From Gammaproteobacteria bacterium (GTDB lineage: Bacteria > Pseudomonadota > Gammaproteobacteria > Steroidobacterales > Steroidobacteraceae): DNA of 64,000 nt. The position numbers were made by a program, and so were the translations under genes. Of the stretch, positions 36,631 through 54,109 are shown piece by piece. The stretch spans positions 62,001 to 126,000 of the forward strand of contig PLUE01000028.1 in NCBI GenBank assembly GCA_003164785.1. Reading direction: 5' to 3'. Under the pieces are notes generated by a model. That model had not been told where the DNA came from and did not search any database. It worked only from the letters and a program-made list of their open reading frames with translations. The stretch's first letter is position 1, and every line of letters starts with the position of its first letter.

Positions 36631-36720
36631 GGAAGTGTGGCCGAGCGGTTTAAGGCTCCAGTCTTGAAAACTGGCGTAGGGGCGACCCTACCGTGAGTTC
36701 GAATCTCACCGCTTCCGCCA
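36631..36720 (+). tRNA. tRNA-Ser(UGA)
   Basis: 90-nt tRNA with encoded CCA. Acceptor GGAAGTG pairs with CGCTTCC (36710-36716), discriminator G, then CCA 36718-36720. The anticodon stem CCAGT/ACTGG holds loop CTTGAAA with anticodon TGA at 36665-36667 (reads UCA). A long variable arm GTAGGGGCGACCCTAC and the T-arm GTGAGTTCGAATCTCAC fit tRNA-Ser. The 3' part is the attachment site of the adjacent element, which restores the gene after insertion. Confidence 0.97.
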
Positions 36721-36726
36721 AACCAT
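36663..36726 (+). repeat. attL: 64-bp direct repeat in tRNA-Ser
   Basis: From the anticodon loop (CTTGAAAACTGG...) to ...CCAAACCAT, identical over 64 bp to 54046-54109. It includes the 3' 58 nt of the tRNA plus 6 nt beyond CCA. Confidence 0.95.
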
Positions 36727-36764
36727 AGGGGTTTTCGCGTTTTCACCGAGTGCAAAACGTGCTG

Positions 36765-36785
36765 AGTTGCACTCCAAGTTGCACT
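36765..36785 (+). repeat. Arm-type repeats near attL
   Basis: Two copies of AGTTGCACT (36765-36773 and 36777-36785), starts 12 bp apart, between attL and the integrase gene. The same motif pair recurs near attR and once internally. Spacing and placement fit integrase arm-binding sites (inference). Confidence 0.55.
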
Positions 36786-36947
36786 TTGTTTCGAAATGGC
36801 GTAGGTTTTGCCACATACGCGCGACTGCGCGTGCAAACGAAACGGCCCCGAACGGTGGTGGTACACCGAGCGAGGCCTGGCCACACAAGCAAATGAGGTG
36901 CTCACATGGTTGACCGAAATTCTATCTCGGCGCGGGAGTCATAGCCC

Positions 36948-38000
36948 ATGCCGTCAATTCAAAAGCGAAAGAACGGCGACGGCTCGACCAGTTTCTTGGC
37001 GTGGGTACGCATCAAGCCGTTCAAGCCCGCCAGCCGGTCATTCCCAACCCAGACCGCGGCCCGCGATTGGGCGGAGGCGCTGGAGTCGGAGTTGCGGAAG
37101 CAGCGCAAGACCGGCGAGGCGCGCAAGGATCTGACCAGCCTCACGCTCAAGGGCCTCATCGAGGCTTTTCTGGCGGACCCCGAAAACATCCAACTCAAGT
37201 ACTTCCCCAACCTTGAGCAACTCCTGGCGTGGTGGGTCAACCATTGCGGCGGCGAGAAGGTCATGGAATTCGGGACGGTCAAGCTGCGCGACGCTCGCGA
37301 ACTGCTCAGCAACGGCCGTGCACCGGCCACGGTCAACCGGTATCTGAGCGCGCTGCGCTCTTGTTGGAACTGGGGAAGGGCGGCGCAATACGTGCCGGCC
37401 GAGAAGGTTTGGCCGACTCGGCTATTTCGGACGGAGCCACGCGAGCGGGTGCGGTTCCTAAACGACGCCGAGTTGAAAGCCGTGATGGACGCCGCCGAGG
37501 CCTATGCGCCCTGGATGCACGCCGCGGTGGTGACATCACTGGCGACCGGCCTCCGTCAGGGCGAACTTTTGCGCCTCGAATGGAAGGACGTCGATTTCGA
37601 GCGCCAAACGGTGGTGGTGCTGATCTCGAAAAATACCAAGCGACGCATCGTCCACTTGCCGGCGCCCGCCATAACGGCTCTCAAGGTGCTACGGCGCAAC
37701 GGCATGGTGGGGCCGAAGCCAATTTTCGTGGACGGCGAGGGCGAACGAGCGACGAAAGACTATCTGGCGGTTCATTGGAAGCGGGTTCGAAAGACCGCGG
37801 GCCTCGTCGACTTCCGCTGGCACGATCTGCGTCATAGCTGCGCCTCGTTTCTGGCGCAGAACGGTGCGAGCCTCGTGGAGATCGGCAGTGTCTTGGGCCA
37901 TAGCTCGCCGTCGATCACGGCGAAGTACGCGCACCTTGTCGCGGGGCGGCCTGTGACAGGTGCGGACAAGCTCGCGGAGAAATTACTCGGCGGCGCTTGA
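36948..38000 (+). CDS. int: Tyrosine recombinase / phage integrase
   Basis: 350-residue site-specific recombinase for integration at tRNA-Ser. The catalytic set is complete: Arg203 (ATGLRQGELL), Lys228 (SKNTKRR), His292 and Arg295 (HDLRH), His318 (LGHSS) and Tyr327 (AKYAHL). The N-terminal ~65 residues form an arm-binding-like domain (KRKNGDGSTSFLAWVR), followed by the core-binding domain. It lies 221 nt from attL and is oriented away from it, the usual layout. Stop overlaps the next gene's ATG by 1 nt. Confidence 0.95.
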   Translation: MPSIQKRKNGDGSTSFLAWVRIKPFKPASRSFPTQTAARDWAEALESELRKQRKTGEARKDLTSLTLKGLIEAFLADPENIQLKYFPNLEQLLAWWVNHCGGEKVMEFGTVKLRDARELLSNGRAPATVNRYLSALRSCWNWGRAAQYVPAEKVWPTRLFRTEPRERVRFLNDAELKAVMDAAEAYAPWMHAAVVTSLATGLRQGELLRLEWKDVDFERQTVVVLISKNTKRRIVHLPAPAITALKVLRRNGMVGPKPIFVDGEGERATKDYLAVHWKRVRKTAGLVDFRWHDLRHSCASFLAQNGASLVEIGSVLGHSSPSITAKYAHLVAGRPVTGADKLAEKLLGGA

Positions 38001-38527
38001 TGGAATTTTCCATCAAGCGCTCGGGCAGGAACACCTTCGTTATTTGGGATAGCGAAGGTTCCAGCCGCACCGAGCCGCTGACACGAGAGGACGCAACCAA
38101 ACGGCTCGATGCTTTCAGGGCGGCAGAGCGCGCCCGACTCATCAACGACCCCACCGCGCAAGAGCATCGCGATGTAATGCGAGTGTATCGCCAAGCTAAT
38201 GGAAACCCCTGGATACAGGCACTGCTCATGCCCCCCGAGCGGCAAACCTATCTGCGCCGAATAAATGACAAGGGGCGCAAGGCCGCCGATGAAGCCTTGG
38301 CGTGGTGGGCGCGAAAGCCACCAGGGATGAAGCCGTCGCAATGGGTCTTGATTCAGAATACAGAGGCGGCATCGGCGGTGCGTGGCCGTCTTGGCGATGC
38401 CGCTCGGCAGCAAGTAAGCACTCTCTGGAACGCACTATCGAACATTCCATCGCGCAAGCGATCCGGTCAGATTGCAATCATGTTGAATATCGACATAAGG
38501 CACGTCCGGCGATTGCGTCCACGCTGA
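38000..38527 (+). CDS. Hypothetical protein coupled to integrase
   Basis: 175 residues starting at the ATG that overlaps the integrase stop (TGATG). Mixed-charge soluble protein without signal or membrane segment. The C-terminal SRKRSGQIAIMLNIDIRHVRRLRPR looks like a helix-turn-helix ending, so a DNA-binding role (for example directionality or regulation) is possible. No family recognised. Amino-acid composition and uninterrupted frame support a real gene. Confidence 0.7.
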   Translation: MEFSIKRSGRNTFVIWDSEGSSRTEPLTREDATKRLDAFRAAERARLINDPTAQEHRDVMRVYRQANGNPWIQALLMPPERQTYLRRINDKGRKAADEALAWWARKPPGMKPSQWVLIQNTEAASAVRGRLGDAARQQVSTLWNALSNIPSRKRSGQIAIMLNIDIRHVRRLRPR

Positions 38528-38882: not shown

Positions 38883-39106
38883 TGCGCTCCCAGAGCGCCG
38901 CGGCCGAGGTGGCGATCTCGACTCGCGGCAGGATCATCGACGGGGACACGTCGAATAATGCTCGCGTAACTCAAGCGGCGCAAGAGCAGTGTGACGCGCT
39001 CGCAAGCTTCAATGCCGGGCGCTCCGGATCTGATCGGTATCGCCCGCCCGGCGCCACGCATCGCGACTGGTCGTACAGGCCCGAGCGCAAGCGGGCGAAA
39101 TCGTGA
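38882..39106 (+). CDS. Small hypothetical protein in early operon
   Basis: 74 residues, ATG overlapping the previous stop as TGATG and its own stop overlapping the next gene's GTG as GTGA. Polar and basic, with no recognisable domain. Evidence for coding is mainly the exact fit between neighbours. Confidence 0.5.
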   Translation: MRSQSAAAEVAISTRGRIIDGDTSNNARVTQAAQEQCDALASFNAGRSGSDRYRPPGATHRDWSYRPERKRAKS

Positions 39107-39294
39107 GTTCGCTCAAATCTCGGCAAATGCACCATTGGCATCTATTGACCGAATCGGAACAGCGGGTCGCCATTGTTCGCCTGGCAAGATCCGGCATGAC
39201 GGTGCATGGAATTTCTTCAATCACTGGTGTTGCCGTCAAGGCGATTCAGAAGATTCTCGGGGAAGGCGCAATACCGGACAGCAAAACACCATGA
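39103..39294 (+). CDS. Small helix-turn-helix protein
   Basis: 63 residues: LTESEQRVAIVRLARSGMTVHGISSITGVAVKAIQKIL is a clear homeodomain-like helix-turn-helix of the transposase/sigma-like type (residues 15-52). Probably a regulator of the element's early genes (inference). GTG start at 39103, ATGA overlap with the primase-helicase. Confidence 0.72.
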   Translation: MSSLKSRQMHHWHLLTESEQRVAIVRLARSGMTVHGISSITGVAVKAIQKILGEGAIPDSKTP

Positions 39295-41510
39295 TCGCGG
39301 GGTCGAAACTCAACGGCACCGCGCCTGTGCCGAACGGTCAAGAAATTGCGAGGGCAATATCGACGTTACACCCAGATGGCGGAATCATAGAACTTCGCGC
39401 TATCTATAAAGGCGGCCGAAAACGAATCGATGCGGGATGCTTTGATTTTGACCACCGCGAACTCGCCGCGAATGAAGCGATTCGGCTCAATCGCGCTGGC
39501 GCCGCTGTCTATTTCAATTTAAATCAGCTGGATAAGCAGCTACAGGCTCGCTATTCGAATCGGGTCGAGGAATACGCGTCATCCACCGCGACAGACAACA
39601 ATGTCACACGGCGGTGCTGGGTCCTGATCGACCTCGACGCGCAAAGGCCCAAAGACACGAGCTCCACGCCGGAACAACTCGCGCAAGCAATTAAGCGCGG
39701 ATGTGCCGTAATGGAGTATCTCTCGGTGCAGGGCTGGCCTAAGCCGGTATCCGCCGAAAGCGGTAACGGATACCACCTTTTATATCCGATAAACCTTCCG
39801 AACGACGATGCAAGTCGAACCTTGATAAGCGGATGCCTCAAAGCGCTTGCAGGTCGATTCGACGATGCGGTGGTTAATGTCGATCAGTCTGTTTTCAACG
39901 CAGCGCGGATCATAAAGCTACATGGAACGATTGCGAACAAGGGCGACAACATTCCGGCCGCACCGTGGCGGCTGTCGAAACTGACCGAGATACCTGAGAG
40001 GGTCACGCCTGTTGCCATTGAACACTTGGAGGCGCTTGCTGCTGAAAGCGGCAGTTCCACGAGCGAGCGGGGCAAGCGTGATACACGACCCGAAATTTAC
40101 AGCGGGACCTCCTGGACCGATGGCGACTTGCAGGCTTTCCTTACCAAGGGTGGCATCGAGGCAGTAGGACCCGAGCCCCACGAAGGCGGCCAACGGTGGA
40201 AACTCACTCGCTGCCCGTTCAACGCGGATCACGGCTTCGGAGAGTCGGCTGTGTTTCTGCAACCGAACGGTCGCCTCGGCTTCAAGTGCCAACACAACGG
40301 CTGCAAGGACAAGCATTGGATTGACTTGCGAATCCTCGTAGACGGCCCTCGAGAACAGCGCGCCCTCGCTAATCGACCGAGGAATGAGGCGGCCCAATCC
40401 CCCGAGGCGCAATCTGCTGCCGAAATGAACGCGCTTGATATTCCCGCGGCTTCGTCATGGGCAGATCGAGACCCGCCACCGGATAGAGATTGGATCTGCG
40501 AGGGTTTAGGCTTACCTGCGGCACGGGTGATATCGATGATCGGCAATGGCGGTTTCGGCAAGACCACGATCGCCGCTCAGATCATGGTGGCGGTAGCAAC
40601 AAGCCAGCCGCTATGGGGAAATGCCGTCGCTGGCGGATGTGTGGTCGGGTTCTTCTGCGAGGACGAACAACCGGAGATCGAACGCAAGATCCGCACTATT
40701 TCCGACGTCGAAGCCATCGCGCTTGAGTCGCTCGACAATCTCCACGCACTCAGTCGTGACGGGGACGACAATGTGCTGGCCTCCTTCGACCACGATCGTA
40801 TTGTTCTCAGCGAGTTCTATCACCAACTCGATGCCACGCTTGCGCGCTACCGTCCGCGCCTCACCATCATTGATACCGCGGCCGACGTCTTTGCCGGCGA
40901 CTTTATGTCCACGCCCCATGTACGGCAATTTATCAAAACGGCACTCGGAGGGTTATGTAAGCGGCACGAAACGGCCGTTCTCCTACTGGCTCACCCATCG
41001 GCCTCGGCTATGGCAACCGGCGACGGCGGCGGATTTTCGACGGCATGGAACAACTCGGTGCGCAGCCGCCTTTACCTGCGTCGGCCGAAATCCGACGACG
41101 CTGATGCGATCGTCGACCGGCGCGTTATTGAGATCAAAAAGAGCAACTACGGCCCATCCGGCGGAACGATCCCACTCATATATCAGCGCGGCCGATTCAT
41201 TCTTGACTCAGATCCGATCGACGAGGGGCACACTGGAGGCCGGAAGAGCGCCAAAGCCGACACCCGTCTCTCCATGGCGGTAATGACCTACTTCGAGAAA
41301 AACGCAGCGAGCGGCCAAGTGGTTGCGTCTGGATCGATTTTGAAGGCGCTACAGACGACCGGCGACTTGGAGCATACCAAAGATCCAAAGGGCGCCGAGA
41401 AGGTGCGCAAGCGGCTACAGCGGGCTCTTAAGGTGCTGGTGGTCGAGGGGATTCTGCGCTCGTGTGACGTACCGCGGGGCTATCGAATGGTGTCGGAGTC
41501 GGCCGTATGA
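39291..41510 (+). CDS. Phage-type primase-helicase (prim-pol-like plus RepA-like ATPase)
   Basis: 739 residues. The N-terminal half resembles a primase-polymerase-like domain, with acidic WVLIDLDAQRP (Asp114, Asp116), SGNGYHLLYPI (157-167) and the FNAARIIKLHGT motif (202-213). A zinc-finger follows (Cys308, His314, Cys333, Cys338). The C-terminal half is a RecA-fold, RepA/DnaB-like ATPase: Walker A GNGGFGKTT (418-426), Walker B-type LTIIDTAADVF, and VLLLAHPSAS. It likely initiates replication of the excised element at the iteron cluster starting directly at its stop codon (inference). Confidence 0.85.
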   Translation: MIAGSKLNGTAPVPNGQEIARAISTLHPDGGIIELRAIYKGGRKRIDAGCFDFDHRELAANEAIRLNRAGAAVYFNLNQLDKQLQARYSNRVEEYASSTATDNNVTRRCWVLIDLDAQRPKDTSSTPEQLAQAIKRGCAVMEYLSVQGWPKPVSAESGNGYHLLYPINLPNDDASRTLISGCLKALAGRFDDAVVNVDQSVFNAARIIKLHGTIANKGDNIPAAPWRLSKLTEIPERVTPVAIEHLEALAAESGSSTSERGKRDTRPEIYSGTSWTDGDLQAFLTKGGIEAVGPEPHEGGQRWKLTRCPFNADHGFGESAVFLQPNGRLGFKCQHNGCKDKHWIDLRILVDGPREQRALANRPRNEAAQSPEAQSAAEMNALDIPAASSWADRDPPPDRDWICEGLGLPAARVISMIGNGGFGKTTIAAQIMVAVATSQPLWGNAVAGGCVVGFFCEDEQPEIERKIRTISDVEAIALESLDNLHALSRDGDDNVLASFDHDRIVLSEFYHQLDATLARYRPRLTIIDTAADVFAGDFMSTPHVRQFIKTALGGLCKRHETAVLLLAHPSASAMATGDGGGFSTAWNNSVRSRLYLRRPKSDDADAIVDRRVIEIKKSNYGPSGGTIPLIYQRGRFILDSDPIDEGHTGGRKSAKADTRLSMAVMTYFEKNAASGQVVASGSILKALQTTGDLEHTKDPKGAEKVRKRLQRALKVLVVEGILRSCDVPRGYRMVSESAV

Positions 41511-41971
41511 GCCGGGACAACTTGGGACAAATGCTGGGACATATTCGGGACATTCTGGGACAAAACCATGTCCCGGACTCGGGACAACGGGACAAGCCCC
41601 TATATAAGGGGCTGTCCCTGTCCCGGGGACGGAGGGCAATCGAATCGAGAGAGAGCGCAGCCACGGATTGCAGGTGGAAGGCTCATACACCGACGCAACC
41701 GCCATCCTCGCCTGCGCCAACGTCCCGGCCGCGTCGCGCCAAAATCGACCGTCTCCTTTTGCGCTCGCCGCCGCGCATTGCTCATGGCTTTTCGTCGAGA
41801 TTCTTCGGTGAAGTGCAACTCAAAGTGCAACTTGGCATCGATTCCGATCCAGCGATTTGCACGGATAACCTATTTTTCTCGGCTAGCGGTTCGCGCACGC
41901 CGTCGATGTTCCTTCATTTCTACAGACCGGAGAGCGGCATTTCTATCACCCACGGGGTGACTAATGTCTGA
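41507..41971 (+). CDS. Open frame across the iterons, doubtful gene
   Basis: 154 codons whose ATG overlaps the primase-helicase stop as ATGA. The first ~45 residues are encoded by the iterons (MSRDNLGQMLGHIRDILGQ) and the rest is low-information, Ser/Arg/Pro-rich, with a second frame open over the same span. It also crosses the internal arm-like repeats at 41812-41832. Translation is possible by coupling, but the DNA repeats explain the region better. If not coding, 41511-41963 is a 450-bp non-coding origin region. Confidence 0.25.
   Translation: MSRDNLGQMLGHIRDILGQNHVPDSGQRDKPLYKGLSLSRGRRAIESRESAATDCRWKAHTPTQPPSSPAPTSRPRRAKIDRLLLRSPPRIAHGFSSRFFGEVQLKVQLGIDSDPAICTDNLFFSASGSRTPSMFLHFYRPESGISITHGVTNV
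41514..41624 (+). repeat. GGGACA iteron cluster with AT-centred palindrome: candidate replication origin
   Basis: Seven direct GGGACA copies start at 41514, 41524, 41536, 41547, 41557, 41581 and 41589, and three inverted TGTCCC copies start at 41569, 41613 and 41619. The first five are spaced 10-12 bp, one per helical turn. The last direct and inverted copies flank AGCCCC-TATATA-AGGGGCT (41595-41613), a palindrome with an AT-rich centre. Placement at the 3' end of the primase-helicase matches iteron origins of phages and pathogenicity-island satellites. Confidence 0.75.
41812..41832 (-). repeat. Internal copy of the arm-type repeats
   Basis: AGTGCAACT at 41812-41820 and 41824-41832, i.e. AGTTGCACT on the minus strand, starts 12 bp apart, the same pair as near attL but inverted. 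Confidence 0.55.
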
Positions 41972-42050
41972 CCTCGCCGCCGCCGCAATGGCCGTGCATT
42001 ACCTCATTGCCTGGCTTCGCTCAGGCGCCGCTCGCGGGGTGGCGGCATGA
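41964..42050 (+). CDS. Tiny 28-codon open frame before the resolvase
   Basis: MSDLAAAAMAVHYLIAWLRS... 28 residues, preceded by GGGGTGA and ending in an ATGA overlap with the next gene. Mildly hydrophobic. It may be a leader that couples translation to the resolvase. Confidence 0.4.
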   Translation: MSDLAAAAMAVHYLIAWLRSGAARGVAA

Positions 42051-42526
42051 TCTACATCGCCATCGACCCCGGGCTCACAGGCGCCATCGCGGCCATCGAC
42101 GACCAGGCGCAACTCATTCTCTGCGCCGACCTCCCCGTCATCCATAACAACAAACTAGCCTGGATCGACGCCAACCGGCTGACAGAACTCCTCATGCAGT
42201 GCCGTGATGGTCGCCTCGCACGTATCACGGTGGAACGATCGCAGGCCATGCCCAAGCAAGGATCGGTCAGCACCTTCACCGGAGGCGTTGTCCTGGGCTC
42301 GATCCTGGCAGCCTGCCAACGTATCGCCATACCGCTCGAACTCGTCTCTGCGGCCACCTGGAAGCGAACCATGGGCCTCGACGCAGACAAGGCTAAGTCC
42401 CTGGACCGTGCGCGGCTGCTGTTCCCCGGCGCCGACCTTGCGCGCAAGCGAGACCACGGACGGGCCGAGGCGCTTCTACTGGCCGAGTACAGCCGCCGCA
42501 CGTTCGTCGGCAAGGCGGCAGCATGA
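42047..42526 (+). CDS. RuvC-like Holliday junction resolvase (phage type)
   Basis: 159 residues with RNase H-fold nuclease signatures: IAIDPGLTGAIA (Asp7 region, first catalytic Asp), TVERSQAMPKQG (Glu near 64) and a C-terminal DHGRAEALLLAEY (catalytic Asp/Glu). These match phage RuvC-like enzymes that resolve branched DNA before packaging. It lies between the candidate origin and the terminase genes, fitting a role in trimming replication intermediates. ATGA overlap with the next gene. Confidence 0.82.
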   Translation: MIYIAIDPGLTGAIAAIDDQAQLILCADLPVIHNNKLAWIDANRLTELLMQCRDGRLARITVERSQAMPKQGSVSTFTGGVVLGSILAACQRIAIPLELVSAATWKRTMGLDADKAKSLDRARLLFPGADLARKRDHGRAEALLLAEYSRRTFVGKAAA

Positions 42527-42828
42527 CCGCCGCTCCACCCGCACCAAGTCGCGCGACAGCCCGCAACGTCAAAGCATTCGAGCGCGGGCAGCGACTGCGC
42601 TCCGACATCGAAGCGACCTACCTACGTCTCGCTGTTGCCGCCGGACCGCTTGCACGGTCGCCCACCGGCCTGGAGGTGTGGGAGGAACTCACGTGCTGGC
42701 CGGTGCCATCGCGGCGAACCGTGCGCTGGCATATGAAGCAGATACGTTGCCATCGTGGCAATTCATCGCCCAACGAAAGTCATCCAGAATCAAGCGCGCC
42801 ATGTCGCAACGATTTATTGCGTTTGTAG
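42523..42828 (+). CDS. Hypothetical protein between resolvase and terminase
   Basis: 101 residues starting at the ATGA overlap. The middle part RSDIEATYLRLAVAAGPLARSPTGLEVWEELT...SRRTVRWHMKQIR could be a winged helix-turn-helix, typical of small phage regulators near terminases. The last ~25 residues cross the TTGCCA-N3-TGGCAA palindrome and are less protein-like. Function unknown. Confidence 0.55.
   Translation: MTAAPPAPSRATARNVKAFERGQRLRSDIEATYLRLAVAAGPLARSPTGLEVWEELTCWPVPSRRTVRWHMKQIRCHRGNSSPNESHPESSAPCRNDLLRL
42747..42761. promoter_or_regulatory. Palindromic operator candidate, copy 1
   Basis: TTGCCA-TCG-TGGCAA, a perfect 6-bp inverted repeat, 93 bp upstream of the terminase small-subunit-like gene. 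The same palindrome with CCG centre lies upstream of the ribbon-helix-helix gene at 45339-45353. Confidence 0.5.
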
Positions 42829-42839
42829 CGGAGACCACG

Positions 42840-43445
42840 ATGGCGACCCCTCGCCGAAAAGCCAGCAAGCAATGCACCATCTGCACGAACGAAAAGCGGT
42901 ACGAGATCGAACTCGCCCTCGTTTCGGGCGTCTCGACGCGGGCGATTGCCAAGAAGTTCACCGTCAGCCGCGATGCTGTGTGGCGCCACGGCGCAAATCA
43001 CGTCCCGCCTGAGCGCCGCGCCCAACTGGTGGCCGGCCCACTCACCTCGATGGAGCTTGCCGAACGGGCGGCCGACGAAGGGATGTCTTTGCTCGACCAC
43101 TGCATCATGGTGCGCTCGACGCTTATGAAGCGCTTCCTGGCGGCATCCGAGGCCGATGACCGCAATGGCACGGCCAACGTCGCCGGTCGGCTCCTAGACT
43201 GCTTGCGACTGATGGCGGCCTTGACGGGCGAACTGACCCGGGCCACGGCCGGAACCACAAACAACATCGCGATCATCAACTCGCCGTTCGTGTCGGACCT
43301 TCAGGTCATGCTTCTGCGGACGCTCTCGCCGTTCCCAGACGCTCGAAGGGCTGTGCTTGAGGGGTTGGAGGAGCTATCCCGCCGCACCGTGCCTGACGCC
43401 GCACCGTTGCTTGGGCGCGTGATCGAGCACTCCGATGTCCACTGA
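42840..43445 (+). CDS. Terminase small subunit-like DNA-binding protein
   Basis: 201 residues from the ATG at 42840 (GGAG 6 nt upstream); an ATG at 42801 is also in frame. The N-terminus has a short zinc-like CTIC motif and a helix-turn-helix (YEIELALVSGVSTRAIAKKFTVSRDAVWRH), the architecture of small terminase subunits that recognise packaging sites. It overlaps the large terminase gene by 11 nt, which is the main support for the role; no specific family is claimed. Confidence 0.62.
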   Translation: MATPRRKASKQCTICTNEKRYEIELALVSGVSTRAIAKKFTVSRDAVWRHGANHVPPERRAQLVAGPLTSMELAERAADEGMSLLDHCIMVRSTLMKRFLAASEADDRNGTANVAGRLLDCLRLMAALTGELTRATAGTTNNIAIINSPFVSDLQVMLLRTLSPFPDARRAVLEGLEELSRRTVPDAAPLLGRVIEHSDVH

Positions 43446-45333: not shown

Positions 45334-45338
45334 ATATG

Positions 45339-46668: not shown

Positions 46669-46875
46669 GAACATTCAAATCGTTGGGCCGCGCTCGGCGC
46701 GCGTCTTGCGAACGATCCCGACGCAACCATGGAATTAGCTTGATTGGTGCATCGTGCCAAAGCGGGGATCAGACGGACAGTGCCCCGCGATCAGCCAAGA
46801 AAACCCCGTCAACCGGCGGTGGCAACTTCCTTTATCTCGATGCCGCGCGGCCGGTAACTATTAGAAGGCGCGAAG

Positions 46876-47010: not shown

Positions 47011-47185
47011 CCTTTCTGCCGCCTGCCAGCAGCGTCCGGGACGGCGCTGCGCAGTCTTGTCAATGTACCGCAATCAACCCTTGGGAGTGACGCATGAGTG
47101 ATCGAGGAAGTCTCAGCGCGGGCGCGGAGGTCATATGATCTTGGTCAATATCAAACTAGCCAAGCCTATTTTGGTGACAGCCAAT

Positions 47186-47458
47186 TTAGTGTTTCCCAGT
47201 ATTCGGAACTTCGATGCCAATGACGGAAGCTACGGCGATCTGTCCGTGGGGATCTCCCATAAAACTACGCAAGAACCGCGCGGTATTCTCGGCGGCCCCG
47301 CCGAGGGCCAGTTGGATGGAACTGACGAACTTACATCGCTCGACGGCTAACAGTCCGCCAGCATAGCAAATCGTGCAATCCACAAAAGTGCAGTCAATAT
47401 ATTCATTGCCTTCGATCATGATTCGCTCCGCAGTAAAAGGCTTATTCTCGTAACGCAT
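47186..47458 (-). CDS. Small pentapeptide-repeat-like protein
   Basis: 90 residues with YIDCTFVDCTICYAGG ... VERCKFVSSIQLALGGAAEN, a short run of pentapeptide-like repeats that form a right-handed beta turn, then a helical end. Similar short proteins are scattered in genomes as orphan genes with unknown role. Preferred over the opposite-strand frame because of this pattern. Last gene of the minus-strand cargo group. Confidence 0.62.
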   Translation of the reverse strand: MRYENKPFTAERIMIEGNEYIDCTFVDCTICYAGGLLAVERCKFVSSIQLALGGAAENTARFLRSFMGDPHGQIAVASVIGIEVPNTGKH

Positions 47459-47552
47459 ACGATCGGTCCTTGCCAGTTCAATGAAAAATCCGACATACGC
47501 CCTGGATATTCAGCTTGAATCGGACGATACGCTCGCGATGCTGCATGAACTA

Positions 47553-47747
47553 TCAGCTATGCTCATCGAAAAATCGCTCGATTTCCGCAATCTTTCGCCT
47601 GAACTCATCCGTCTTGAGCTCGATACGCGCGCTACATCCGCAGATGTAATGGTCATGCGTCTTGAGCCAACCGATCGTCTCACGGAACTCCTTTCCGCAG
47701 GCTGGGCAGGGGATATCGATAGGCTCTTGGTCGAGAAGGCCTGGCAT
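47553..47747 (-). CDS. Zinc-ribbon protein
   Basis: 64 residues with IPCPACGKEFRETIGWLKTHDHYICGC, i.e. CxxC and CxC pairs about 20 residues apart, a zinc-ribbon, then a helical C-terminus. The same GWLK...H pattern occurs in small orphan zinc-ribbon proteins. Function unknown. On the plus strand an overlapping frame exists but is less protein-like. Confidence 0.62.
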   Translation of the reverse strand: MPGLLDQEPIDIPCPACGKEFRETIGWLKTHDHYICGCSARIELKTDEFRRKIAEIERFFDEHS

Positions 47748-47786
47748 GTTAGGCAGGCGAATGGAGGGTGAGTGGCAATGCGTTCA

Positions 47787-49034
47787 TCACTTGACGTCAG
47801 CGCCAGTCTCATACTTTGCGCACGCCTCTAGCGCCACGTATGTGGCGGGAAATGGCGGGTGCTGACACTTGTCGATAATAGCTTGGGTGATGTTTGGGAA
47901 TTCGTGGCCGGGTACCAGCCGTTGCCATGCATGCAATTCCTGACTTCGGCAGAGGGTTTCGCGTCGCGAGTCGCCCCGCGCATACTGTTTGCAAGAATTA
48001 TCGATATGGTCAGCGGCTGCGGGATTGATGCTGCGCATGGGCGTTAGGTCATCGACCGTTTTGATCGTGGACGGAGGTTGCGTGTCTTCGATCGGCGCTG
48101 CCCCAGAAATAGCGGTAATTTGTGCCTGTGTGGCCTGAGCGGAGGCCGGATCTGAGTCTTGTGCTGGCGGAGACGATTCAGCATCTTCCGGCGCGGGAGA
48201 AATTTCAGGTGCTGCGTCGGCAACAGGTTCATTCGTAGCATCATGAGCTACATCGGGCATCGGGGCAGTTGAATCCATGAGACGAGAGAACCTAAATATA
48301 AATTCCGGCTCGCGTAGTTTGCCGCGCAGGGTGAGGCTCGTTTCATCGATACATCCCGCCTCTTCATCTCGCAGAAACTCGCCAGAGAATTGGACGGGTT
48401 GGCCTACGGTCATTGCGGACGCGGCAACAAACACGGCACTGCCGGGATCGAGCAGCGTATTGCTTGAGAAATCGGATAGCGCATTGTTGTATGTTCGCAC
48501 GTAAATGTTATCGGCTATTCGGATCTCTAAGACGCCTTTGCCATCACTATTGGAATTGATGTCTTTCATTGTACCGATCCAGTTTGTGACCGAGAGTGAC
48601 GCCAGCAGCTTGCATAGCGCGTGATCCCTCTTGGCTTTGATGCCGCCGCGCTGCATGTCATTGCTGGCGGTGCGCGATTGGTCTTGGGCGTCGCTGACAA
48701 TGCGGACAAAATTCGCCTCATCGCGCGGCAACGGATGGGGAGGCGCCATGTCGTTAAGGTTCGGAAGGCCCGCATTCCCCTCTAACGTGGCGAGGTTATC
48801 GTTTGGGGTTTCGGAATTCGTGCGCACGACATTCGAAGGGGATGCCAGGAACCCAACGAACTTCACGAGTCCCACAAACATTGCGATGCCGATAAAGAGC
48901 GACGCCACGGGCCCGAACCTTCTCCGCCAGAAATACACATGCGGCATTTCCAATGCCGAACCGCAGTGCTTGCACTTGATCGCCGCAGCAAGGATTTCTT
49001 CGGCGCAGTAGGGGCATCGTTTCACTTGGTCCAT
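47787..49034 (-). CDS. Membrane protein with N-terminal zinc ribbon
   Basis: 415 residues. An N-terminal UPF0547-type zinc ribbon KRCPYCAEEILAAAIKCKHCGSAL (5-28) is followed by one membrane helix (PVASLFIGIAMFVGLVKFVGFL, about 42-63). The outside part has a beta-rich region (~130-240), an acidic Pro/Ala-rich linker (~245-320), and a C-terminal part with paired Cys. The layout suggests a sensor or cell-surface protein; role unknown. 16 nt downstream of the secreted-protein gene. Confidence 0.7.
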   Translation of the reverse strand: MDQVKRCPYCAEEILAAAIKCKHCGSALEMPHVYFWRRRFGPVASLFIGIAMFVGLVKFVGFLASPSNVVRTNSETPNDNLATLEGNAGLPNLNDMAPPHPLPRDEANFVRIVSDAQDQSRTASNDMQRGGIKAKRDHALCKLLASLSVTNWIGTMKDINSNSDGKGVLEIRIADNIYVRTYNNALSDFSSNTLLDPGSAVFVAASAMTVGQPVQFSGEFLRDEEAGCIDETSLTLRGKLREPEFIFRFSRLMDSTAPMPDVAHDATNEPVADAAPEISPAPEDAESSPPAQDSDPASAQATQAQITAISGAAPIEDTQPPSTIKTVDDLTPMRSINPAAADHIDNSCKQYARGDSRRETLCRSQELHAWQRLVPGHEFPNITQAIIDKCQHPPFPATYVALEACAKYETGADVK

Positions 49035-49050
49035 GTGATTAGTGTCCTTG

Positions 49051-49701
49051 TTATCGCCCGGATTCCCAAGTATCTACGTGCTTGCCGCGGCACTCGGACC
49101 ACATGTCTTGGCTTAGCATGAATCGGCCCTGGGCATCGGGCATCCTGCCGCCTCCAGTCCTCTTAATGTCGTCCTGGTAGTCGGATAAGCTTGGATAGGT
49201 GATAGCCGGCATAAATTGGCCGAGTGCGACGCGGGCTGGGGCCGTCATTTGGCAGGAGCCGGCTATTCGCGAGCAGATGAAAACCATATAGATGCGAGTA
49301 TCGGGTCTAGCCTCGCGTTGGGGCTCTTGTTCTTGTTGGGCTTCTGCGTTGCGCGCGGCGAACCATCTATTCGCCAAAGCCACGGGCCCCGTGATTGAGA
49401 TTTCACTACCGGAAATCCCCTTCTTATTGAACATTGCTCGATTGCGACCAAGGAACTTGGCTTCGCAAGCCATCTCTATGGTCGTGAGCATCTGAATTTT
49501 GAGCAGGCCGGGCGGGAGATCCGGCGACGCGGCCACGGCCTGATTGATGGCCGCGAGCATCGCATCGAAATTGCTTTGCGCGTCGCCATACGGGGGCGCC
49601 TTGCATAGCGCGTCGTTGGCGTGAGCGTTTACCGCTACGAAAAGCGTCGAAGCGATCAATAACAACGGAACCGCGTTCCTCGCCACGTCAATATGCTTCA
49701 T
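49051..49701 (-). CDS. Secreted/periplasmic hypothetical protein
   Basis: 216 residues with a Sec signal peptide (NAVPLLLIASTLFVAVNAHA, cleavage near residue 28). The mature protein has several Cys (CKAPPYGD, EMACEAKF, ICSRIAGSC, WSECRGK) likely in disulfides. No family recognised. First gene of the minus-strand cargo operon, followed closely by the zinc-ribbon membrane protein. Confidence 0.7.
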   Translation of the reverse strand: MKHIDVARNAVPLLLIASTLFVAVNAHANDALCKAPPYGDAQSNFDAMLAAINQAVAASPDLPPGLLKIQMLTTIEMACEAKFLGRNRAMFNKKGISGSEISITGPVALANRWFAARNAEAQQEQEPQREARPDTRIYMVFICSRIAGSCQMTAPARVALGQFMPAITYPSLSDYQDDIKRTGGGRMPDAQGRFMLSQDMWSECRGKHVDTWESGR

Positions 49702-49733
49702 CTATCTGCGCCTCCATTCGCTGCATCCCATTC

Positions 49734-49772
49734 TATACAGTGTTGGCGCCCTCGCGGTACTGGATGGACGAC
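49734..49772 (+). repeat. Bipartite 39-bp element, copy A
   Basis: TATACAGT-N16-TACTGGATGGACGAC, 30 bp upstream of the zinc-ribbon gene at 49802. Copy B (51392-51430) has the same two blocks at identical spacing, with a partly similar centre. Confidence 0.65.
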
Positions 49773-49801
49773 AGCACCCGGTGCTCGCGACAATCGCCGG
49801 C

Positions 49802-50041
49802 ATGATGCCCCCTCGCCAACTGTTGACCGTGGTCAAGCTTTCCGACCATGGCGGGCAGTATGTGCTGATGCTCAAATGCTCGCATTGCGGCCATACGCGC
49901 GAGGCACGGCCCGAACTGTTCGCCCGGCTCGCCGGCTGGGAAACACCTCTTGCTATCGTCCTTGAACGCCTACGGTGCTCCCAGTGCGGCGCACGCCGAG
50001 CGACCGCGACCGTTCGCCGGCAGACGAAGCGCGACGGCTGA
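49802..50041 (+). CDS. Zinc-ribbon protein, paralogue A
   Basis: 79 residues: LTVVKLSDHGGQYVLMLKCS followed by CSHCGHTREARPELFARLAGW and RLRCSQCGARRATATVRR, two CxxC knuckles ~36 residues apart forming a zinc ribbon. The ATGATG start at 49802 is chosen because paralogue B at 52605 starts identically (ATGATGCCCC). Function unknown. csrA follows 43 nt downstream. Confidence 0.75.
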   Translation: MMPPRQLLTVVKLSDHGGQYVLMLKCSHCGHTREARPELFARLAGWETPLAIVLERLRCSQCGARRATATVRRQTKRDG

Positions 50042-50084
50042 TACGACCTGTGGGAACATAGATTTCCATAGCAAGGAGGCGCCC

Positions 50085-50492
50085 ATGCTTGTTCTAACGC
50101 GAAACATCGGCCAGGTCATCAAGATAGCCCCGGACATTACCGTCACAACACTAGGGATCAATGGGGCGCAGATCCGCATCGGAATCGATGCACCCAAGGC
50201 CATTGAGGTACACCGGGAAGAAACCTATCAGCGGAAGAAAGAATCAGACCGCGTCAGCGTGTTTACGGGTCGAGCACATCCCGCTGACAGGGAAATGCCC
50301 GCTCGATTAGCTCATGATCCCGCTGCGCGATCAATTTTGACCCCGCCGCCGCGATACCTATCAACTCGGGCAGCGATTCATGGACGGCGCCTAGCCGCTC
50401 AACGCTTCCATCGCAGAGACCGGTCACTAGTTGACTCATGGCGCCGACGCTCACGGTATCGTGGCATGCGATATGCGAATCGTGTTGCATGA
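50085..50492 (+). CDS. csrA: CsrA/RsmA RNA-binding regulator with extended C-terminus
   Basis: The first ~56 residues are a full CsrA: MLVLTRNIGQVIKIAPDITV ... GINGAQIRIGIDAPKAIEVHREETY. CsrA binds GGA motifs in mRNA leaders to control translation and stability. A perfect AAGGAGG (50073-50079) lies 5 nt before the ATG. The frame continues to 135 residues, twice the usual length; the extra part is Arg-rich and overlaps antiparallel with the toxin-like gene, so the native stop may have been lost. Phage- and element-borne CsrA copies are known and may reprogramme host mRNAs. Confidence 0.85.
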   Translation: MLVLTRNIGQVIKIAPDITVTTLGINGAQIRIGIDAPKAIEVHREETYQRKKESDRVSVFTGRAHPADREMPARLAHDPAARSILTPPPRYLSTRAAIHGRRLAAQRFHRRDRSLVDSWRRRSRYRGMRYANRVA

Positions 50493-50727
50493 ACGGGTGG
50501 AGAGATTGTGGCATTAGAACCTGACGACGTAGCAAATCGGCCTGCGCGCAAATGAACCTGCTAGGTTGAGTGTTGATGTAGAATGCGAGTGAGCGCTCAG
50601 CGGTCGCGACGATTAACACGAGCCGTTTTGTTTTTTCTGCAACGTGATCGTAGCGCCGAAGCACGACACCGGCACGCAAGGTGAGTGCGTGGGCGCGCAG
50701 CGCGGCGGGGTCCGGCCTGCGCGTCAT
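50263..50727 (-). CDS. Putative PanT toxin (PemK-like pattern)
   Basis: 154 residues, downstream of the Panacea gene by 9 nt. The pattern LRAGVVLRRYDHVAEKTKRLVLI, then AFYINTQPSRFI and HDSHIACHDTVS, resembles the small beta-barrel PemK/MazF group (G-x-V near the start, KxR, buried I-N-S/T strand) but divergently. Being the second gene with a Panacea partner makes it the likely toxin. Its 3' third is antisense to the csrA extension. Confidence 0.6.
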   Translation of the reverse strand: MTRRPDPAALRAHALTLRAGVVLRRYDHVAEKTKRLVLIVATAERSLAFYINTQPSRFICAQADLLRRQVLMPQSLHPFMQHDSHIACHDTVSVGAMSQLVTGLCDGSVERLGAVHESLPELIGIAAAGSKLIAQRDHELIERAFPCQRDVLDP

Positions 50728-50736
50728 CGATTCGGG

Positions 50737-51300
50737 CTACGTACCGTCTTGCGCGAAGTGTTCGCGCAACTCATCGCGGTTATCGATCTCAAGCAACAGG
50801 CTCTCCAGGCCAATTACATCGTTCTCATCGGCTGCGAGCCATGCGGGGCCGTGACTCTCGGCCGTACGCTGTTTGAACGACTTGGCGCCGTGCGCATGCG
50901 CGGATTCGGCGAGACATTCCATTTCAGACGCGCTCAGTACCCGCTCATCGGCCGGTCGCAGTGCTCGCACCGCGTAGCCGTCAACGCTCAGGGAGTTGCG
51001 CGCCCGATCGGTAAGCGGAAACTCTGAATCGCCCTTCAGCGTCTTGAGAATGTCATAGGTGGCGCTCGGAACCGGCCCATGCTTCATCGCAATATATCGA
51101 TCACCCGATATGGGGCGGCCATAGCGGCTCAGATGCGCCTTGTCCGCGTGGAACAGCACCTTGGCAATCGAATGGAGGGTCGGATTTGGAACACGGCCTG
51201 CAATGTAGAGGACAGATTCGACGGCCTTGTCGGTATCGAGCCGGAACGGCCAGCGGGGCAAACGTCGGCTGTCAGTGTTTTCCGTCATGTTGCCTAGCAT
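50737..51300 (-). CDS. Panacea-domain (DUF4065/SocA-like) antitoxin
   Basis: 187 residues from ATG 51300 (alternatives: ATG 51288, GTG 51348). The Panacea core is clear: KAVESVLYIAGRVPNPTLHSIAKVLFHADKAHLSRYGRPISGDRYIAMKHGPVPSATYDILK (residues ~25-85). Panacea antitoxins (PanA) neutralise many unrelated toxins, usually encoded next to them and often on prophages. First gene of the pair; repeat copy B lies about 90 bp upstream in the divergent gap with yedK. Confidence 0.75.
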   Translation of the reverse strand: MLGNMTENTDSRRLPRWPFRLDTDKAVESVLYIAGRVPNPTLHSIAKVLFHADKAHLSRYGRPISGDRYIAMKHGPVPSATYDILKTLKGDSEFPLTDRARNSLSVDGYAVRALRPADERVLSASEMECLAESAHAHGAKSFKQRTAESHGPAWLAADENDVIGLESLLLEIDNRDELREHFAQDGT

Positions 51301-51391
51301 ACTGTGAACGACCCTGGCAAACCATGAAGAATTCTTGCGTTTGATCACGGATCAGCCTTCCCCTTGAGGCCACACGAGCACGGGCGACGCT

Positions 51392-51430
51392 TATACAGTA
51401 TGCGAGCCTCCGAGATACTGGATGGACGAC
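51392..51430 (+). repeat. Bipartite 39-bp element, copy B
   Basis: TATACAGT-N16-TACTGGATGGACGAC, identical blocks and spacing to copy A, 62 bp upstream of the yedK pseudogene and in the divergent gap with the Panacea gene. Confidence 0.65.
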
Positions 51431-51492
51431 CGCCCAAGTATGGTGCAATGACCTACTTTGACCGTATTGCTGCTGCCGGATAGCCTATTACC

Positions 51493-52172
51493 ATGTGCGG
51501 CAGATATGTATTCCCCGACGACGCCTCGATCGAGCGCGAATTCAACATCATTCGCTCCCCGGGGTTGGAAATCCGTCCGAGTTACAACGTTGCGCCTACT
51601 CAGAAGGTGCCCGTAATTCGCCAAGCCGAAGACGCCCGCCGTCTCGATCTACTGCGCTGGGGCCTGATTCCGTTTTTCGCCAAAGGCGAGCCCACCAAGT
51701 ATTCCACCATCAATGCTCGAATCGAGACCGTAGAGACGGCGGCGACCTACCGTGGCCCATGGAAGCGCGGCCAGCGGTGCCTACAGGTCGCAACCGGATT
51801 TTACGAGTGGCACATGAACGAGGAAGGCCGCAAGGCGCCGTTCTATATCATGGTGGTCCGATCCCGGTGTTCGCCTTCGCGGGCCTCTGGGACCGTTCTG
51901 TGAAGGCTGATGGCACTTCCGTTGATAGCTGCGTGCACATCACCATGCCGGCGAACGATCTCATGCGCCACATCCACAACACTGGGAACAACCCCCATCG
52001 CATGCCGGCGATCCTGAGGTGCGAGGATCATGACACGTGGCTGAACGGCGCTGCGGATGAAGCTCGGGCTGTTCTCGCGCAATACGATTCCGGGCTGATG
52101 GTCGCGCACGAAGTCACGACGCGCGTCAATACGCCGAAGAACAATGACGCCGCTCTGGTCGAGGCGGTCTAG
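51493..52172 (+). pseudogene. yedK: Frameshifted SRAP/YedK (HMCES-type) gene
   Basis: SOS-response-associated peptidase family, which crosslinks abasic sites in single-stranded DNA through Cys2. The first frame gives MCGRYVFPDD (Cys2), PSYNVAPTQ, GLIPFFAK and GFYEWH to about 51855, then runs to an early stop at 51903. From about 51857 another frame resumes the family sequence (PVFAFAGLWDRS, then HITMPAND and HRMPAIL) to 52172. A one-base deletion or a sequencing error explains this. All catalytic residues (Cys2, Asn, Glu, His) survive in the joined frames. Confidence 0.82.
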
Positions 52173-52231
52173 CGGTAGCCTAATTTTTTGATAAAGTCTA
52201 CAGTCGTGAGGCGAATCCCGCGGATAATCAG

Positions 52232-52465
52232 GTGCCGCAATTGACTAGAAGAAACGATGAGCTACGGCCTCGGTCCTATGACCAACTCATGGCAGCATGC
52301 GACAGAGGAGACCCCGATGCGCTAAGCGCCTTGGGGAAGTATCAGGCAATTAGGAGTGAGACAGGCACCACCCCAGACATGTTTTACAGCGTCGACCACG
52401 GTTGGGTCCTTAAGCGCCAGAAGTTTGGTGGGTCGCGCAGTAATAACGGGCCACCCGAAGGCTGA
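52232..52465 (+). CDS. Small hypothetical protein
   Basis: 77 residues from a GTG without a clear ribosome site; polar, with RPRSYDQLMAACDRGDPDALSALGKY possibly helical. No family recognised. Low certainty that it is translated. Confidence 0.4.
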   Translation: MPQLTRRNDELRPRSYDQLMAACDRGDPDALSALGKYQAIRSETGTTPDMFYSVDHGWVLKRQKFGGSRSNNGPPEG

Positions 52466-52579
52466 CATCAGCGCAGTGCCGCAACTCCGTCTCCCGGGAT
52501 CGAGTCCGGATTGAGTCTATCGCACGCCAACAAGCGGACGAAGCCGAAGGCAGCCACCTAGAATCGCTTGGCTCTGATA

Positions 52580-52595
52580 CTGTAGTTATATACAG
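52580..52595 (+). promoter_or_regulatory. LexA box upstream of zinc-ribbon paralogue B
   Basis: CTGTAGTTATATACAG, a CTG-N10-CAG match with the TATA-rich centre seen in the lexA operators of this genome, 9 nt before the ATG at 52605. It implies SOS control of the following gene. Confidence 0.7.
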
Positions 52596-52604
52596 TTTCT
52601 TGCT

Positions 52605-52847
52605 ATGATGCCCCGAGACCAAACTCCGCTCACCGTGGTCAAGCTGTCAGACCACGGTGGCCAATACATTCTGATGCTCAAGTGCGCCCATTGCGGCCAC
52701 GCCCGGGAGGCTCACCCGGACGTCTTCGCCAGGATGGTAGGCTGGGAAGCACCCTTCGCGGCGATCCTGGAGCGTCTCCGGTGCTCTCAGTGCGGGGCGC
52801 ATCGGTGTCTGGCCACGGCACGGCGGCCGATGAAGCGGGATCGCTAA
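52605..52847 (+). CDS. Zinc-ribbon protein, paralogue B, probable SOS gene
   Basis: 80 residues, about two-thirds identical to paralogue A: LTVVKLSDHGGQYILMLKCA, CAHCGHAREAHPDVFARMVG and RLRCSQCGAHRCLATARRP. Two CxxC pairs form a zinc ribbon. A LexA box ends 9 nt before the ATG, so expression is likely induced by DNA damage. Function unknown. Confidence 0.75.
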   Translation: MMPRDQTPLTVVKLSDHGGQYILMLKCAHCGHAREAHPDVFARMVGWEAPFAAILERLRCSQCGAHRCLATARRPMKRDR

Positions 52848-52905
52848 TGCTCTTTCCTGTGGAAGTTGATGCGGCCCGTGTTCGCATGACCGGCCAGGTA
52901 ACAGA

Positions 52906-53280
52906 TCAACGAAGTGCCTTTATCTGGGCGGATAGTTGTCGAGCACGCTTGCCGTATAGGTCATCGTGCCGGCAAATGTACAACATGTCGACTACATCAT
53001 CTTTATGCGTGTACAGAAGCAAAACATCTGGCGCTAGGTGACATTCCCGAATCCCGGCAAGGACACCTTGAAGAACGTGATCTTTCATGTTCTTCGGAAG
53101 CTGCCGTGGAGGAATCTTTCTTTTGTACGTATTGAACAGCGTTACGCTATCGAGAATTTCCGGGAACTCTATTTTATATTCGTCGTACTGCGGTCGAATA
53201 TTTGGTGTGGCAATAACCTCGACGATCCGCGGGGCTTGCTTTTTCTTTGGCTGAGCGCCGCTTTTTACCCGGTTAGCCAA
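52906..53280 (-). CDS. Hypothetical protein, third gene of a minus-strand operon
   Basis: 124 residues from a TTG that overlaps the previous gene by 16 nt. Soluble, basic N-terminus (KSGAQPKKKQAPR), then a mixed alpha/beta region with PQYDEYKIEFPEILDSVTLF and LLLYTHKDDVVDMLYICRHD. No family recognised. The overlap series with the next two entries supports a coupled operon. Confidence 0.6.
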   Translation of the reverse strand: MANRVKSGAQPKKKQAPRIVEVIATPNIRPQYDEYKIEFPEILDSVTLFNTYKRKIPPRQLPKNMKDHVLQGVLAGIRECHLAPDVLLLYTHKDDVVDMLYICRHDDLYGKRARQLSAQIKALR

Positions 53281-53471
53281 GCGAGAAACTTGTCTTGATC
53301 CGCAGGCGCCTTAGCTCGAGGGCCTCGCTGAGCAGCCAATATTCTCGCTGCCGTACCTACTTCATAGGTTTCGGAGCTGTTTACAGTAATTACTGGCGTG
53401 ATCGGGGTTATGGCGTAAGGTTGCTGCTGAGTGAAGCGGCCAACAGAACTGCTTTGAAACAGGTATGTCAT
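53265..53471 (-). CDS. Hypothetical protein, second gene of the operon
   Basis: 68 residues, MTYLFQSSSVGRFTQQQPYA with a Ser/Thr/Pro-rich front and a basic end. ATGA overlap with the upstream gene and 16-nt overlap with the downstream gene. No recognisable domain. Confidence 0.5.
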   Translation of the reverse strand: MTYLFQSSSVGRFTQQQPYAITPITPVITVNSSETYEVGTAARILAAQRGPRAKAPADQDKFLAWLTG

Positions 53472-53767
53472 GGCGTTTTTTTCTTCAGTTTCTTTGGAAC
53501 TTCGGTTTGCATAAAAATACCTGTCTGGATCTGGTACAGGGGGTCGCCAACAGGCGTGAATACGTTCAGCGACCGCTCGATGCTAACCAAGATTGGTTTC
53601 AGCTTCAATTTGGTTCCATCGGAGAGGGTATAGACGATCTCTTCAGCCGACTGCTTCTTAACAGTTAGCGCAATTTTGCGACCCATGTCGAGAAGCCCGG
53701 CCTGTAGCGGAATAGGCATGCCCACCGCCGGAGCGGTGGCGCTTTTGCGCTTGGCCTTTTTTGCCAA
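53468..53767 (-). CDS. Hypothetical protein, first gene of the operon
   Basis: 99 residues from a TTG with a strong GGAGG 6 nt upstream (complement of 53774-53778). Lys/Ala-rich N-terminus, then a beta-rich part EEIVYTLSDGTKLKLKPILV and FTPVGDPLYQIQTGIFMQT that recalls small beta-barrel domains. No family claimed. It heads the three-gene operon next to attR. Confidence 0.62.
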   Translation of the reverse strand: MAKKAKRKSATAPAVGMPIPLQAGLLDMGRKIALTVKKQSAEEIVYTLSDGTKLKLKPILVSIERSLNVFTPVGDPLYQIQTGIFMQTEVPKKLKKKTP

Positions 53768-54045
53768 AGAAAACCTCCGGTCGAATCGGTTGTGTGATCC
53801 AAGCTAGGTTAACGCATTATGTCGGCCAACCCTATACCTGTGTCGCATCTCGGAAAGTCAATCCGCTTGCCAATGCCGTCAGACTTTACCATATTGCATT
53901 TCGGCTCGCTTTTGCGTTTGCCAGTTGCAATTGAGTTGCACTGAAGCAGAAATCCGGGCAATTCAGTCAGCTCTAAAGAAAAAATACATTTGGCGATTCA
54001 AGCGTTTACGTGCGTGAGCGTGTGGTCATCGTGCGAGTCGTGCGA
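53768..54045. other. Non-coding right end of the element
   Basis: Between the minus-strand operon and attR there is no convincing gene. It holds the operon's upstream region and the arm-type repeats. Confidence 0.6.
53923..53942 (+). repeat. Arm-type repeats near attR
   Basis: AGTTGCAAT (53923-53931) and AGTTGCACT (53934-53942), starts 11 bp apart, about 105 bp inside attR; match the pair near attL. Confidence 0.55.
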
Positions 54046-54109
54046 CTTGAAAACTGGCGTAGGGGCGACCCTACCGTGAGTTCGAATCTCACCGCTTCCG
54101 CCAAACCAT
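54046..54109 (+). repeat. attR: 64-bp direct repeat, 3' tRNA-Ser fragment
   Basis: Identical to 36663-36726: the tRNA-Ser 3' portion from the anticodon loop through CCA (54101-54103) plus 6 nt. Not a functional tRNA here because the 5' part is missing. Confidence 0.95.

Follow-up and report, generated by a model that had tools for sequence, protein, structure and literature searches.

How can an integrated element that brings its own integration, replication and DNA-packaging genes, and no recognisable capsid or tail gene, be packaged at all? This question is raised by a 17.4-kb element at positions 36663-54109 of a 64,000-nucleotide stretch of DNA (the window; positions 62,001 to 126,000 of contig PLUE01000028.1, assembly GCA_003164785.1) from a gammaproteobacterium of the family Steroidobacteraceae. 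A preliminary description, made from the sequence alone, had read the element as a phage satellite. Our analysis supports that reading and sharpens it by three features: a fused large terminase subunit (TerL), a domain resembling part of a helper head protein, and the recurrence of headless loci. We propose, with a probability of roughly two in three, that the element is a phage satellite that packages its own DNA into procapsids of a Felixviridae-like myovirus, using its own small terminase subunit (TerS) and a packaging motor fused to a dead nuclease domain that would serve for docking.

Limits of the element and absence of structural genes

The element is flanked by perfect 64-bp direct repeats in a tRNA-Ser(UGA) gene, as the preliminary description had stated, and their start-to-start spacing is 17,383 bp.

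36631-36720 (+): tRNA-Ser(UGA), the integration target, of which the left copy remains complete (ARAGORN)
36663-36726: attL, 64-bp repeat (repeat comparison)
54046-54109: attR, 64-bp repeat (repeat comparison)

For a 64-bp repeat inside a tRNA gene, a chance origin is excluded. Satellites of this kind are integrated and have their own integration genes and attachment (att) repeats, and all of these are found in the window element. In a genus-wide comparison of tRNA-Ser sites, the flanking DNA was too diverged and showed no empty site (attB). The G+C content is 0.585 within the element versus 0.635 around it. The helper-type prophage described below has the same G+C content as the element, 0.585.

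No portal, capsid, tail or lysis family was matched among 30 open reading frames (ORFs) of the window compared with PHROGs or 20 compared with Pfam, which bears out the earlier statement that no such gene is recognisable. Head-and-packaging matches in the window were limited to TerL and a weak small-terminase match of a helix-turn-helix (HTH) protein at 39103-39294 (E 0.0015). The window element is thus without capsid and tail genes of its own, as a satellite would be; among its relatives, a portal in locus L079 and a baseplate-hub-like gene in L076 are exceptions. Positions 41658-46792 and 43762-48981 are found at 100% identity in two public viral contigs, one stretch in each. Because both contigs cross the junction between the terminase and cargo genes, an assembly accident at this point is argued against.

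A large terminase with a second, dead nuclease domain

The packaging genes and the genes directly after them are arranged as follows.

42523-42828 (+): small protein of the A5 family, directly upstream of TerS (comparison with relatives)
42840-43445 (+): TerS of the satellite family (conserved family in relatives)
43435-44682 (+): TerL motor module, ATPase and first nuclease, with Walker motifs and D-E-D nuclease residues (Pfam, alignment)
44683-45333 (+): second nuclease domain of TerL, a homologue of the nuclease domain in the helper TerL; it has lost the catalytic aspartates and is proposed to serve for docking (alignment, model, tree)
45390-45575 (+): ribbon-helix-helix protein (Pfam)
45572-46012 (+): homologous to the C-terminal domain of the NUDIX protein from the helper head operon (PHROGs)
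46009-46668 (+): helical-hairpin protein, kept in relatives; candidate capsid-assembly factor (comparison, predicted structure)

TerS received weak HTH matches only from Pfam and PHROGs; it belongs to a conserved family that lies immediately 5' of TerL in the relatives. TerL (43435-45333; 632 residues) matches PF03237 and PF17289, and the Pfam motor and nuclease matches stop near residue 410. Residues 1-410 are a packaging motor of the ordinary kind, and its active-site motifs are conserved. It is followed by another nuclease domain of the terminase type (residues 417-624), which is related to the one in Felixviridae and their relatives. The preliminary description had correctly listed a large terminase subunit and had overlooked this second domain. 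A search of the same genome paired residues 416-612 with a 443-residue TerL on another contig, C19, the match (39%) lying in the C-terminal half of the latter.

Relatives were drawn from 200 genomes of the family (seven with any TerL match, the host genome included), from genome contigs searched with a TerS alignment (10 loci, partly on the same contigs) and from viral contigs. Fifteen loci carry a fused TerL: the window element, L024, L025, L026, L027, L028, L068, L073, L074, L076, L077, L078, L079, L122 and L123. Since the TerL proteins of L025 and L026 differ at 2 of 629 residues, these represent 14 distinct fused terminases. They were compared with loci whose TerL has a single nuclease domain, which represent the proposed helpers (L031 and L039-L063, with 16 distinct C-termini).

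In the profile alignment, the motif I aspartate of the second domain was present in all 16 distinct helper domains versus none of the 14 satellite domains, and the motif III aspartate in 15/15 readable helper domains versus 0/13 readable satellite domains. Judged by these residues, the second domain of the satellites is a dead nuclease that has lost catalytic residues. The front module was checked in the 11 fusions of the Terminase_6 type, with L027, L028 and L074, which have other motors, set aside. All 11 retain the Walker B Asp-Glu pair and the D-E-D residues of the first nuclease, and Walker A ends in GKT in nine. Three types of motor carry the fusion: Terminase_6, Terminase_3 (in L028) and one further type (in L027).

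An AlphaFold model of the second domain, built on a 24-row alignment, had a mean predicted local distance difference test (pLDDT) score of 89. Its best PDB matches were terminase nuclease domains, including those of RB49, herpes simplex virus and cytomegalovirus; the structural similarity was moderate, with query template-modelling scores of 0.48-0.62 in the top ten matches. Domain residues W59, R134 and A154 were kept in 24/24 aligned rows of the satellite and helper classes, and G163, N167 and H168 in at least 90%. The fusion was covered to 80% in none of 391 phage and none of 80 plasmid records having a TerL match.

A dead homologue of a helper part is the classic form of a dominant-negative protein. 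The loss of the motif I aspartate from all 14 satellite domains would therefore also suit an interference device, in which the domain acts as a decoy on the helper portal or another packaging partner and blocks helper packaging, with packaging of the element itself being secondary. A decoy, however, would require neither a TerS in front of it, as seen in 14 of the 15 loci, nor fusion to the end of a motor whose own nuclease residues are retained in 11/11 cases. We regard such a device as unlikely.

A proposed helper group

The TerL on contig C19 belongs to a helper-type prophage (L031) in the same assembly. Its genes encode a portal (PF06381), a MuF-like head protein with an intein, a topoisomerase IB, a 649-residue NUDIX protein (phrog_6216), a capsid-like protein (phrog_6671, which also matches phrog_264, major head protein, with E 1.5e-7) and a tail sheath. 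The intein-like stretch of the MuF-like protein, a weak Pfam match, and the topoisomerase IB gene, which is of the eukaryotic type, both lie within the head operon (L031 5267-8109).

The satellite resembles these phages in two of its genes. The gene at 45572-46012 aligns to positions 419-544 of 545 of phrog_6216 (E 1e-23), a family annotated in PHROGs as of unknown function. Among 50,697 phage records, the helper TerL matched 27, with at least 80% of its own length covered in 14; residues 417-632 of the window TerL alone matched 14, and gene 45572-46012 matched 14. By accession, these three sets of 14 records are identical. The matching phages include Chronis, RothC/D, PdC23, Yersinia YenM, Shewanella QDWS, Actinobacillus pPE4 and E. 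coli Rac-SA53. Chronis, RothC, RothD and PdC23 are placed in or named with Felixviridae in PMC12451628; the others are counted as Felixviridae relatives by sequence search only. In PdC23, the gene order is TerL, portal, hypothetical protein, NUDIX protein, a gene named endosialidase, and capsid. In the helper-type phages L061, L062 and L063, TerL resembles that of L031 in the nuclease domain only, and the ATPase part differs; TerL domain swapping may thus occur in helper-type phages too.

The helper NUDIX protein could be a protease-scaffold, because it lies in the head operon, matches DUF2213 (E 0.002) and has a relative in L079 with a weak match to a head-maturation protease (E 2.5e-4). The preliminary description had seen only accessory cargo after the terminase. 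This does not hold for 45572-46668, which recurs in relatives and belongs to the core, and the head-protein-like gene had been overlooked. For the adjacent helical protein (46009-46668), a scaffold role would be conceivable; a fold search, which did not include the PDB, gave no viral match at E <= 0.001. We also considered it as a homologue of helper phrog_6268 and dropped this candidate, since the identity was 21% over a poor alignment.

Recurrence of the headless gene set

The preliminary description had suggested asking whether the same gene set recurs in relatives without head genes, or whether its left half is followed by them. The A5 protein and the fused TerL occur in 15/15 fused loci and TerS in 14/15, L027 being without it; seven of the 15 (L068, L073, L074 and L076-L079) were found via TerS, so that its presence there is not independent. 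Contigs L024, L025, L074 and L123 stop within 0.6 kb past TerL and are uninformative on downstream genes. The other 11 loci extend for more than 1.1 kb, the least informative being L068 (1.2 kb) and L079 (1.6 kb), and in L068, L077, L079 and L122 the downstream genes were tested for kinship to helper head proteins only. Among these 11 informative loci, none has a helper-type portal downstream of the fused TerL, eight have a gene like 45572-46012, and six have the helical protein (L068 and L079 end too early, and L122 has a weak match, E 0.08). A headless gene set therefore recurs. In the single-nuclease loci, a portal is present in 26/26 and starts within 1.6 kb of TerL in 25; the distance is 4.0 kb in L049.

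These results bear on the possibility that the element is a decayed prophage, now immobile, whose head and tail genes were lost by a deletion just after the terminase. Its left half does resemble a phage replication and packaging region, ordinary phages have relatives of its motor part with up to 54% identity, and one of its cargo genes, encoding an SRAP protein, is split over two frames. Against this, the headless order recurs in loci whose neighbouring sites differ: the window element lies in tRNA-Ser, the L026 integrase is close to a tRNA-Lys, that of L030 (whose TerL is cut by the contig end) is close to a tRNA-Cys, and L027 has a 25-bp repeat. A decaying prophage would not be expected to retain a dead domain, and 0/11 informative fused loci have a downstream helper-type portal. 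In L027, the 25-bp repeats bound 9.1 kb, in which no integrase was seen. No att repeats were found for L026, which runs to the contig end, or for L028, L066, L070, L076, L077 and L079.

A small autonomous phage, or a capsid-forming satellite, with head genes too diverged to recognise would be another explanation. Several cargo proteins of the window have no family match, and L079 has both a portal and a longer head-operon gene. Against this, a structural family was matched by 0/30 window ORFs, no ORF resembling the portal, MuF or capsid proteins of the helper was seen in fused loci other than L079, and for 59 ORFs of five relatives, the 25 families listed out of 56 were free of portal, capsid and tail families. 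Moreover, the two elements with both ends seen measure just 17.4 kb (window) and 9.1 kb (L027). We consider this explanation very improbable.

With the domain profile, 396 genomes of the order gave five matches, none beyond the known carriers; 369 genomes of the class gave two (the host genome and one weak match) and 398 genomes of the phylum five (the host genome, G818, G819 and two weak matches), without a new fusion. These searches scored seven or eight candidates per genome, and G818 and G819 are of the single-nuclease type by frame length (430-475 residues). We rejected TerS alone as a satellite marker because L075 has such a TerS, followed by TerL and a portal. L030, L064, L066, L070 and L075 have a related TerS and no second nuclease domain was seen in them; they stand outside the counts of fused loci. 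In L066 (Bradyrhizobium sp. SRL28) and L070 (Methylocella silvestris TVC), the related TerS is accompanied by a single-nuclease TerL with no helper-type portal after it, and these are perhaps satellites of other helpers.

Descent of the dead domain

When 13 satellite domains were placed on a tree with 16 helper domains, the two classes lay on opposite sides of one branch (support 97/98, and recovery in 98% of 200 bootstrap trees). This tree is unrooted, omits L074 (partial) and L025 (a near-copy), and has long branches for L028 and L078. L027 clusters with L068, L073 and L024 despite its different motor type. The dead domain thus seems, from this grouping, to have outlived a change of motor. 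That dead domains attached to three motor types cluster together also speaks against prophage decay. The fused domain is old, is confined to one side of a single branch and has remained an open frame despite deep divergence and motors of three types. Taking this together with the recurrence of the headless order, we think it quite unlikely that the element is a remnant of a complete phage.

Proposed mechanism and points that weigh against it

The satellite reading suggests the following sequence of events, which we infer from the anatomy of the element. When a helper enters or is induced, the element would excise and replicate, and its own TerS would mark element DNA for its own motor. The satellite motor alone would be unfit for the helper portal; the dead domain, shaped like that of the helper, would dock it there. 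The borrowed head-protein domain (45572-46012) and the helical-hairpin protein (46009-46668) may draw coat protein into satellite shells, by recruiting or resizing the helper shell. If so, the lineage would have captured a helper nuclease domain once, inactivated it and kept it as an adapter for exchangeable motors of three types, building chimeric packaging machines on a foreign shell together with the borrowed head domain. We see even odds for this wider history.

Several observations weigh against the satellite reading or its generality. In the second domain, the motif II glutamate, present in 16/16 helper domains, is retained in 11/14 satellite domains, and in the motor, Walker A is altered to GKN in L078 and L079. 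In phage lambda, the portal-binding tether sits behind the nuclease, as described in PMC9026076; docking via the nuclease fold itself is therefore an analogy. The score of the helper NUDIX protein against DUF2213 falls short of the Pfam cut-off. The 45572-like gene is lacking in L076, L077 and L122, and L076 has a baseplate-hub-like gene downstream of the fused TerL (12320-13339, +; phrog_196, E 1e-68). L079 carries a helper-type portal (110-1555, -) upstream of the fused TerL on the opposite strand, as well as a longer NUDIX-family head gene, and so weakens the generality of the headless arrangement. Its head gene aligns to two stretches of the helper protein, residues 125-324 and 498-632, lacks what lies between them and would fit a shortened scaffold. 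Some members with a fused TerL, such as L079, may be more phage-like, and L079 is possibly a satellite bringing its own portal.

The relation to a resident helper is also affected. A helper-type portal occurs in only two of the 200 family genomes (G000 and G178), so that most fusion carriers seem to be without a resident helper, with the reservation that this draw may not include every carrier. The window and C19 contigs are in one fragmented assembly, whose estimated contamination is 6.45%, and the co-residence of element and helper is therefore not certain.

Other genes of the element

The integrase, primase-helicase, RuvC-like resolvase and terminase pair of the preliminary description were all found as open frames. 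Upstream of the A5 gene, the element contains the following features.

36948-38000 (+): tyrosine integrase, PF00589, E 7e-30; 46% identical to the L026 integrase (Pfam, PHROGs)
37997-38527 (+): small protein adjoining the integrase gene; 28% identical over 82 residues to the integrase neighbour in L030 (sequence comparison)
39103-39294 (+): HTH protein, weak matches, including the small-terminase PHROG match given above (Pfam, PHROGs)
39291-41510 (+): primase-helicase, PF13481, E 3e-24; DNA polymerase/primase in PHROGs
41501-41640: cluster of 10 GGGACA/TGTCCC words, candidate iteron origin (word count)
42047-42526 (+): RuvC-like resolvase, phrog_1770, E 3e-28 (PHROGs)

The candidate iteron origin is real as a word cluster: 10 of the 24 GGGACA/TGTCCC words of the window fall in 41501-41640, the densest such stretch. 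In several relatives, a serine recombinase gene takes the place of the RuvC-like resolvase gene upstream of TerS.

The region after the core genes holds the cargo.

47189-53767: zinc-ribbon proteins, CsrA-like regulator, Panacea (SocA-like) protein, SRAP protein in two frames, YafQ/RelE-like toxin and unknowns (Pfam, PHROGs)

Two paralogous small cysteine-rich proteins (49781-50041 and 52605-52847, +) are 74% identical in DNA over 167 bp. The CsrA-like regulator (50085-50399, +; phrog_9500, E 3e-21) has a long C-terminal extension. The Panacea protein (50740-51348) and the toxin (52909-53280) are encoded on the minus strand. The SRAP (HMCES-like) gene (51493-52172, +) consists of the overlapping frames 51493-51903 and 51867-52172, which match two halves of phrog_1599; this split reflects either a broken gene or a sequencing error. 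PADLOC assigned no defence family to any of the 10 cargo proteins scanned.

Comparison with known systems and significance

The element resembles phage-inducible chromosomal islands (PICIs), including those of Staphylococcus aureus (SaPIs), in having an integrase and att site, its own replication genes (here a primase-helicase) and TerS, and no capsid or tail genes. Its size is within their range. Unlike PICIs, which use the helper terminase, redirected by their own TerS or by Rpp, as outlined in PMC10690885, the window element encodes a complete TerL of its own, with a helper-like extra domain. It shares the possession of both terminase subunits with capsid-forming PICIs; these also encode capsid, protease, portal and connectors, according to the same source, whereas none of these was found in the window element. 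PLE and P4 are satellites that hijack helper capsids and reshape them with external scaffolds of their own, TcaP and Sid (PMC10945586). The proposed remodelling of the helper shell would be similar to that by TcaP in PLE, but the candidates here, a helical protein and a gene that copies the C-terminal domain of a protein from the helper head operon, are set apart from TcaP and Sid by description. Finally, Felixviridae and their relatives have a TerL nuclease domain and the end of a NUDIX head-operon protein homologous to the satellite parts. They differ in having a single-nuclease TerL followed by portal and capsid genes, while the window TerL is fused, has lost the second-domain aspartates and is followed by no portal; these phages are the proposed helper group and not the same element. 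In titles and abstract openings of the open-licence PubMed Central literature, no satellite with a fused two-nuclease TerL was found.

Our analysis suggests a helper group, Felixviridae and their relatives, for a satellite family, and the fused TerL provides a sequence signature for finding further members. How a packaging motor recognises its own portal has been asked for a long time, and hybrids of phages lambda and 21 are one system used to study it. The satellites seem to have performed a natural domain-swap experiment on this question: the same dead domain has been kept behind three motor types, which points to the portions of the fold that docking requires. Residues W59, R134, A154, G163, N167 and H168, retained in both classes despite the loss of two catalytic aspartates in the satellites, are candidate docking residues. 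If the proposed history is true, the docking specificity of TerL would be a portable module.

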